Shown one piece after another: positions 3,252 through 4,703 of a stretch of DNA of 5,252 nt. The stretch is taken from the NCBI GenBank assembly GCA_024276815.1, contig JAJRWM010000040.1:1-5252 (forward strand), given 5' to 3'. The stretch comes from a bacterium. GTDB taxonomy: Bacteria; JACRDZ01; JAJRWM01. The translations under genes were made by a program, and so were the position numbers. The notes beneath the pieces were generated by a model. The model did not search any database, had not been told where the DNA came from, and was given only the letters and a program-made list of their open reading frames with translations. Numbering within the stretch: the stretch's first letter is position 1; each line of letters starts with the position of its first letter.

Positions 3252-4052
3252 ATGGCGGAAAGACAACTGGTTGGTTTTGTTATCGAAAAAGAAGAATACG
3301 CGATTGACATTCTGCTGGTGCAGGAAATCATCCATAAACAGGAAATTGTCGCTGTGCCCGGCTCGCCTGATTTCATGGAGGGGATCATCAGTATCCGCGG
3401 CAAGATTATCCCGGTGATTGATCTGCGCAAACGATTCGGCTTCCCGCCCCAGGAGGACAGCGACAGTAGCAGAATCATCGTTCTCAACATCCAAGGGAAA
3501 ACCATCGGGATTGTGGTAGATCAAGTCAGCGAGGTTCTGCATTTATCCGAGAACTCGATTTCGCCGCCGCCGCGAATCACCATCAGCAAGAGTAAAGAAT
3601 ATATTGAGGGTATTGGCCAGCTCCAGGATCGCTTGATAATTATCCTGGATATCAAGAATTTGCTTACTTCTTCGGAGTTGAGCCAGCTTGACGGCTCGTT
3701 TGTTCCGGCGCCCGGTTCCGAAGACATTATGGCGGCCAGTGAGGGACCGGCGGAAGAAGTGGAGCCGGCGGCTGAACTGGGGGTGGAAATACCTGAAGCG
3801 GAAGCGAAAAAGTCAAGTCCTGAGGCAACGCAAGTTGAACCTCAGGCGGTGACCGAAAAAGTTGGAAAAGAATCAGTGGTTCCGCCCATTGCTGAAGAAG
3901 CCGGGCCTGGAGCAGTGGGTAAACCGGTGGAGTCTGAAGTGGTGGCGGAGCAGCCGGTCAAGCGGAAAAGAGGGCGCCCCCGGAAGATACGCACCGAAGA
4001 GGAGTTGAACAAACCGAAACGTCCCCGGGGGCGGCCCAGAAAAAACAAATAA
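3252..4052 (+). CDS. CheW-domain protein with a C-terminal tail carrying two AT-hook motifs
   Basis: Residues ~4-143 are a complete CheW domain: EEYAIDILLVQEII (14-27), the signature F-M-E-G-I-I-x-I-R49-G50-K-I-I-P-V-I-D-L-R-K-R-F-G (41-63), G-K-x-I-G-I-V-V-D-x-V-x-E-V (82-95), and Y-I-E-G-I-G…L-I-I-I-L-D-I-x-x-L-L (117-138). CheW couples receptors to the kinase CheA. Typical CheW proteins end soon after this point; here about 123 more residues follow. Residues ~144-235 are an acidic Glu/Pro/Ala/Val-rich, probably disordered linker. The end is strongly basic with two AT-hooks: KRKRGRPRK (237-245, core R240-G-R-P243) and RPRGRPRK (257-264, core R259-G-R-P262). AT-hooks bind the minor groove of AT-rich DNA. 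The SD is AAGGTGG at 3236-3242, 9 nt upstream. cheA and receptor genes are absent nearby. DNA binding is inferred from motif identity; RNA or membrane binding by the basic tail is an alternative. Confidence 0.93.
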   Translation: MAERQLVGFVIEKEEYAIDILLVQEIIHKQEIVAVPGSPDFMEGIISIRGKIIPVIDLRKRFGFPPQEDSDSSRIIVLNIQGKTIGIVVDQVSEVLHLSENSISPPPRITISKSKEYIEGIGQLQDRLIIILDIKNLLTSSELSQLDGSFVPAPGSEDIMAASEGPAEEVEPAAELGVEIPEAEAKKSSPEATQVEPQAVTEKVGKESVVPPIAEEAGPGAVGKPVESEVVAEQPVKRKRGRPRKIRTEEELNKPKRPRGRPRKNK

Positions 4053-4070: not shown

Positions 4071-4430
4071 GTGGCGGAAATGGGGAAATGGTGTATTGAT
4101 GAGAGTGAGCTGGAAAACCTAAACCCGATAAAAGTCAGGGACTTGATGATTGATTGCTTTTTCCACGCTCAAAAAGCGACGATTGCCAAGGCGAAAGAGT
4201 TGTTGAAGGCGCCGGGAAGCGATGATGATATTATGAGCAGCATTCAAACGACGATAAGACTGGCTTTTGACGAAGCCGGGGGTGATTTTAATAATCCAAC
4301 CAGGGATAGCCTCGCGAAGGTTGTCGGTATTTTGGCCGCGAAAGCGGCTTTGTGGCATACCCCCCGGGAGATCATTGAGTGTCATCAGGCTGAGATTACC
4401 AAGGCTATCAACCGGCTCCCCTTCGATTAA
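4071..4430 (+). CDS. Conserved-looking 119-residue protein of unknown function, second gene of the cheW operon
   Basis: I cannot name a characterised family. The GTG start at 4071 is chosen because AGGAGG (4059-4064) lies 6 nt upstream; the ATG at 4080 would be 15 nt away. It begins 18 nt after the cheW stop, so the two are almost certainly cotranscribed and perhaps cooperate. The protein looks cytosolic, soluble and mainly helical, with no membrane segment. It has an N-terminal MGKWCIDE segment, a helix rich in charged residues (K-V-R-D-L-M-I-D-C-F-F-x-A-Q-K, ~21-35), an acidic GSDDDI turn (~49-54), a G-G-D-F-x-N-P-T turn (~69-76), and a final amphipathic helix (~97-115). Two Cys (8 and 28) are too far apart for an obvious metal motif; a third (103) and two His do not form one either. 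I have an impression of similar unnamed proteins in Desulfotomaculum-like Clostridia, which needs a search. Confidence 0.82.
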   Translation: MAEMGKWCIDESELENLNPIKVRDLMIDCFFHAQKATIAKAKELLKAPGSDDDIMSSIQTTIRLAFDEAGGDFNNPTRDSLAKVVGILAAKAALWHTPREIIECHQAEITKAINRLPFD

Positions 4431-4615: not shown

Positions 4616-4703
4616 GCCGGGGTGGCGAAATCGGTAGACGCAACGGACTTAAAATCCGTCGGAGCTAGCCTCTGTGCGGGTTCAACTCCCGCCCCCGGCA
4701 CCA
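4616..4703 (+). tRNA. tRNA-Leu (anticodon UAA, reads UUA)
   Basis: The acceptor stem GCCGGGG (4616-4622) pairs fully with CCCCGGC (4693-4699), followed by discriminator A and an encoded CCA (4701-4703). The D stem is GCG/CGC with GG in the loop. The anticodon stem ACGGA/TCCGT (4643-4647 and 4655-4659) encloses CTTAAAA with anticodon TAA at 4650-4652. A long variable arm (4660-4675), typical of class II tRNAs, contains a GAG/CTC stem. The T arm is GCGGG/CCCGC around TTCAACT. The A-73 discriminator and class II shape support leucine. It stands alone, with no other tRNA beside it. Confidence 0.97.

Follow-up and report, generated by a model that had tools for sequence, protein, structure and literature searches.

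A CheW protein with an acidic linker and two AT-hooks that may anchor a chemosensory array to the nucleoid

CarD of Myxococcus xanthus has an HMGA-like C-terminal tail in which an acidic segment is followed by RGRP hooks, and this tail binds the minor groove of AT-rich DNA (PMC4374960). The same tail is thought to mediate the localisation of the protein to the nucleoid (PMC4374960). A chemosensory array of M. xanthus is also found on the nucleoid, where FrzCD places it by means of a basic tail that acts without sequence specificity (PMC5716589). FrzB, a divergent CheW, lacks about 20 residues required for contact with the kinase, to which it fails to bind (PMC6952110). The CheW described here resembles both systems in part. 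Like CarD, it is a folded protein with a disordered C-terminal tail made of an acidic segment and then RGRP hooks, but CarD has four hooks and a domain that binds RNA polymerase and CarG, whereas the window protein has two hooks and a CheW domain. The Frz system uses a short basic tail to bring chemosensory proteins to the nucleoid (PMC5716589, PMC6952110), as the window protein would, although the DNA-binding part of Frz is histone-tail-like and belongs to a cytoplasmic receptor, whereas here it would belong to CheW and consist of AT-hooks. The combination of a CheW with an HMGA-like tail was not found in the literature or in the genomes searched; in principle it is close to FrzCD and CarD taken together.

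The window, that is the whole stretch of DNA that was analysed, is an entire contig of 5252 bases from the 2.39-Mb draft genome, in 246 contigs, of an uncultured flagellated bacterium, and its features are listed in Table 1. The CheW open reading frame matched Pfam PF01584 with 140.2 bits (4.4e-41, family cut-off 23.5 bits) over profile positions 1-137 of 138. It aligned without gaps over 145 residues (2e-31) to the CheW chain 2ho9, which we take to be the E. coli protein, and the strands that contact CheA are undeleted. Two further CheW-type chains aligned about as strongly, and the Thermotoga CheW chains (1k0s, 2ch4, 4jpb) more weakly. The match runs from one end of the domain to the other, for 2ho9 as well as for the CheW chains from solved complexes. 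Residues V23, E25, R49 and G50 were invariant in an alignment with the CheWs of Succinivibrionaceae/Aeromonadales; R49 and V23/E25 presumably correspond to R62 and V36/E38 of E. coli, known contact residues. A loss of the kinase-binding region as in FrzB was considered and rejected on the gap-free alignment to 2ho9, and the window CheW differs from FrzB in retaining this region. As the core is full-length and the kinase-contact region is kept, we regard the protein as a normal CheW plus a tail which, with no part of the domain missing, should be able to enter an ordinary array. A protein encoded elsewhere (L018 1486-3126, G030) carries three tandem CheW domains in one chain, about 50% identical to the window CheW.

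Table 1. Features of the window, and the Clostridia/Firmicutes proteins that match its hook tail.
Feature	Position	Strand	Basis
Candidate sigma-70-type promoter TTGACA-17-TAACAT, about 50 bases upstream of the start codon	3171..3199	+	consensus match alone, 10/12 positions
CheW gene with hook tail, 266 aa	3252..4052, stop codon included	+	ORF and Pfam match
CheW domain, residues 5-141, complete, with conserved R49 of the 'IRG' motif	3264..3674	+	Pfam and alignments
Acidic Pro/Ala-rich linker, residues 148-235 (88 aa), net charge -14	3693..3956	+	charge count, structure prediction
Basic tail, residues 236-266 (31 aa), net charge +13	3957..4049	+	charge count
First AT-hook, KRGRPRK	3966..3986	+	motif
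Inter-hook linker, IRTEEELNKPKR; core recurs between hooks of unrelated Clostridia proteins	3987..4022	+	pattern and scan matches
Second AT-hook, PRGRPRK	4023..4043	+	motif
119-aa protein, family unassigned, possible operon partner	4071..4430	+	starts 18 bases past CheW stop, strong AGGAGG
Hook-repeat proteins	L012 4983-6512; L013 3186-5366; L014 3093-5312; L015 3492-6752

Canonical CheWs stop a few residues past the domain, whereas the window CheW continues for about 119 further residues, comprising the acidic linker and then the hooks. The linker holds 19 D/E against 5 K/R and the tail 16 K/R against 3 D/E, with the RGRP cores at residues 240 and 259 (window 3969 and 4026). An earlier note on this DNA had described a full CheW domain, an acidic stretch of about 90 residues and two RGRP hooks 19 residues apart that are written in different codons, and this anatomy was borne out at every point. 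The note had also argued from the codons that the second hook is no recent DNA copy; the difference does exclude duplication, but only a very recent one. The note's further view that both hooks appear to be maintained goes beyond this evidence, as the searches gave no ortholog with the tail. When the window was shuffled 200 times with its dinucleotides preserved, a pair of hook patterns never appeared. Two RGRP cores appeared in a fraction of 5e-6 of the shuffles of the whole protein and of 8e-5 when only the basic last 31 residues were shuffled, and the pair of hooks is not due to chance. The Pfam AT_hook model scored 16.2 bits at residues 237-248, just below its cut-off of 17.4; since this model has only 13 positions, single hooks score close to the cut-off. 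The tail is accordingly described as hook-like by its residues, KRGRPRK and PRGRPRK being the canonical core, and not as a member of the Pfam family. With two GRP cores in basic flanks and an adjacent acidic segment, it has by sequence the make-up of an AT-hook or HMGA-like tail. The linker is predicted to be nearly without structure and has low confidence, two short helices being the only regular elements, in a weak AlphaFold model of the window CheW (mean pLDDT 56) built on a shallow alignment of four sequences.

The CarD-like order of the tail, together with the precedent of FrzCD for an array on the nucleoid, makes a tether the likeliest function. We propose, with moderate confidence at most, that the window protein is a working CheW with an acquired HMGA-like tail that tethers a chemosensory array to the nucleoid. 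Its CheW domain would dock on the receptor tips and on the P5 domain of CheA, as in any array, and the acidic linker would hold the tail off the baseplate. The two hooks would bind the minor groove of AT-rich DNA and discriminate little between sequences, and the resulting link between array and nucleoid would help to place, space or partition the arrays. For AT-hooks as a class, DNA binding is well founded, and we infer it for the window tail from its residues; membership in an array, and its positioning by the hooks, we infer beyond that.

The basic tail could also act as an electrostatic anchor that binds a polyanion other than DNA or a protein surface, for instance RNA, acidic phospholipid, its own linker or some acidic partner, and does not tether DNA, an explanation which is unlikely but must be taken seriously. 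It agrees with the position of a strongly basic tail directly next to an acidic linker, and RNA binding is known for some AT-hooks (PMC11354804). Other CheWs, moreover, have basic tails without hooks. Lysine-rich tails of this kind were found at the C-terminus of CheWs in L041 (G052), L023 (G047) and L033 (G057), and a weaker one in L039 (G017). The loci L041 3-2621 and L023 1336-3421, which belong to different families, have the same order of genes: an AAA_22 ATPase, a CheW with an N-terminal extension and a CheW whose lysine-rich basic tail is disordered. The fourth gene in this order is the start of a membrane protein in L041 and a HAMP/receptor-like protein in L023. Since such tails occur in several genomes, they probably have more than one origin, and their repeated appearance would suit a recurring demand for an anchor, electrostatic or DNA-binding, without proving one. 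Two exact RGRP cores with K/R and P in their flanks have, however, more specificity than a merely basic tail would need.

The hook tail is confined to one CheW gene. The KRGRPRK pattern occurs once in the four genomes examined for the phylum, in the window CheW gene; the three other genomes lack the tail, and nothing matching its 31 residues was found among 385 further diverse genomes. Among 96 CheW-domain open reading frames from about 33 genomes, RGRP hooks were present in the window CheW only, and neither its nearest homologs nor its paralogs in the same genome have them. A scan that covered 84,980 species genomes gave hookless CheW relatives and no hooked ortholog. No second CheW with hooks was found in the viral contigs, phages or plasmids searched, in 290 genomes searched with the hook-linker pattern, or in 398 genomes of the phylum of the Clostridia locus. 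A looser hook pattern, MGNGGNMGNCCNMGNAAR, was uninformative in diverse genomes because its frequency was about that of its reversed control. The literature search linked no CheW to AT-hooks, the matches apparently being papers on HMGA or instances of "chew" as a surname or ordinary word. The architecture is known from a single sequence. The earlier note had named homologs without conserved hooks as evidence against its reading; in a weak form this is what was found, the nearest homologs being hookless and the hooks being seen in a single gene.

The hook tail itself, in contrast to the whole architecture, has counterparts, since four proteins from Clostridia/Firmicutes matched it in the scan of species genomes (Table 1). 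A unit of 19 residues, RGRPRKx[KR]TEEELNKPKxx, is common to the window tail and all four, with up to 86% identity over 28 residues. The hook-linker copies read RGRPRKIRTEEELNKPKRP in the window, RGRPRKERTEEELNKPKLP in L012, VGRPKKEKTEEELNKPKRG in L013, RGRPRKEKSEEELNKPKAG with three more copies in L014, which has five hooks, and RGRPRKIVPEEELNKPKGK in L015, mostly with a period of 19 residues. The recovery of EEELNKPK was forced, as it was one of the six seeds of the scan, but the presence of hooks on both of its flanks in proteins unrelated to CheW was not. No CheW is among the hosts: one resembles short-chain dehydrogenases, another matches no Pfam family, and the others are membrane coiled-coil-like proteins. 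L013 and L014 have an evident N-terminal membrane segment and a long coiled-coil-like region, as read by eye, and this layout suggests that there too the hooks end a scaffold-like protein. The unit may recur because a small module was inherited from a common source, or because a spacer that works well was reached by convergence.

These findings bear on a neutral origin, in which a lineage-specific low-complexity tail acquired hooks that are tolerated and have no important function. CheW C-terminal tails vary freely, and the restriction of this tail to one genome, with the relatives in the phylum and the diverse genomes lacking it, is as expected from such a gain; its absence from all relatives also lowers our confidence that the tail matters. 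Neutral gain is nevertheless quite improbable in our judgement, as the different codons of the two hooks and a linker that matches an independently used unit argue for selection on the peptide.

The window CheW gene lies apart from receptor and CheA genes. It is flanked by a gene for decaprenyl-phosphate phosphoribosyltransferase on the opposite strand and by the gene for the 119-aa protein (4071-4430), which matched no Pfam, NCBIfam or PHROG family. Homologs of the latter in three distant genomes (26-41% identity) make up a small family; they are not adjacent to CheW, and a role as conserved CheW partner was rejected. A tRNA-Leu gene with anticodon TAA is found downstream of the possible operon, at window 4616-4703. 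The tail layout that the window CheW shares with CarD, a transcription co-regulator, would allow the hooks to put CheW at AT-rich promoters, where array components would titrate or modulate transcription. Pfam, however, detected neither an RNA-polymerase-binding nor a folded DNA-binding domain, the gene context is not regulatory, and the activity of CarD resides in an N-terminal domain which the window CheW does not have; we consider such a regulator very unlikely, and the earlier note's suggestion of a transcription factor found no support. That a CheW gene was joined to an unrelated 3' end during assembly is hardly credible, because even though the contig is short and the assembly fragmented, a single uninterrupted frame, with ordinary codon-position GC in each part, runs through domain, linker and tail to a stop codon of its own, and the next start downstream has a ribosome-binding site.

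The tether to the nucleoid, also put forward in the earlier note, is thus left with the CarD and FrzCD parallels and the complete core on its side. It is favoured further by two canonical hooks far above chance and by the genome, which encodes a flagellar motor (FliG was found) and 12 matches to the CheW domain, which include CheA proteins as well as CheWs encoded next to membrane receptors. The reuse of the hook unit in Clostridia proteins, two of which have a membrane and coiled-coil layout compatible with a tether, and the lysine-rich tails borne independently by other CheWs point the same way. Against it stand the hookless nearest homologs and paralogs, the single sequence of this architecture and the distance of the gene from receptors and CheA; the acidic linker could also neutralise the basic tail. 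In addition, FrzCD is a cytoplasmic receptor with its basic tail at the N-terminus, whereas a cytoplasmic receptor was not evident among the complete receptors of the genome: its seven MCP signalling domains belong to five complete receptors, all with membrane segments, and to two that are cut by contig ends.

More tentatively, and as a possibility we think doubtful, it could here be the CheW adaptor and not a receptor that uses AT-hooks to link a membrane chemoreceptor array directly to the chromosome. It would then be one of a wider unrecognised class of CheWs with DNA-binding tails, hooked in this case and lysine-rich in others, which would have arisen several times and would serve to position or partition arrays with the help of the nucleoid. 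Should the tail bind DNA, the Frz system of Myxococcus would not be a special case in placing arrays on the nucleoid, and no dedicated receptor would be needed, as a tailed adaptor would suffice to connect a membrane array with the chromosome. CheW with and without the hooks would then be a portable tool for testing the nucleoid positioning of arrays.
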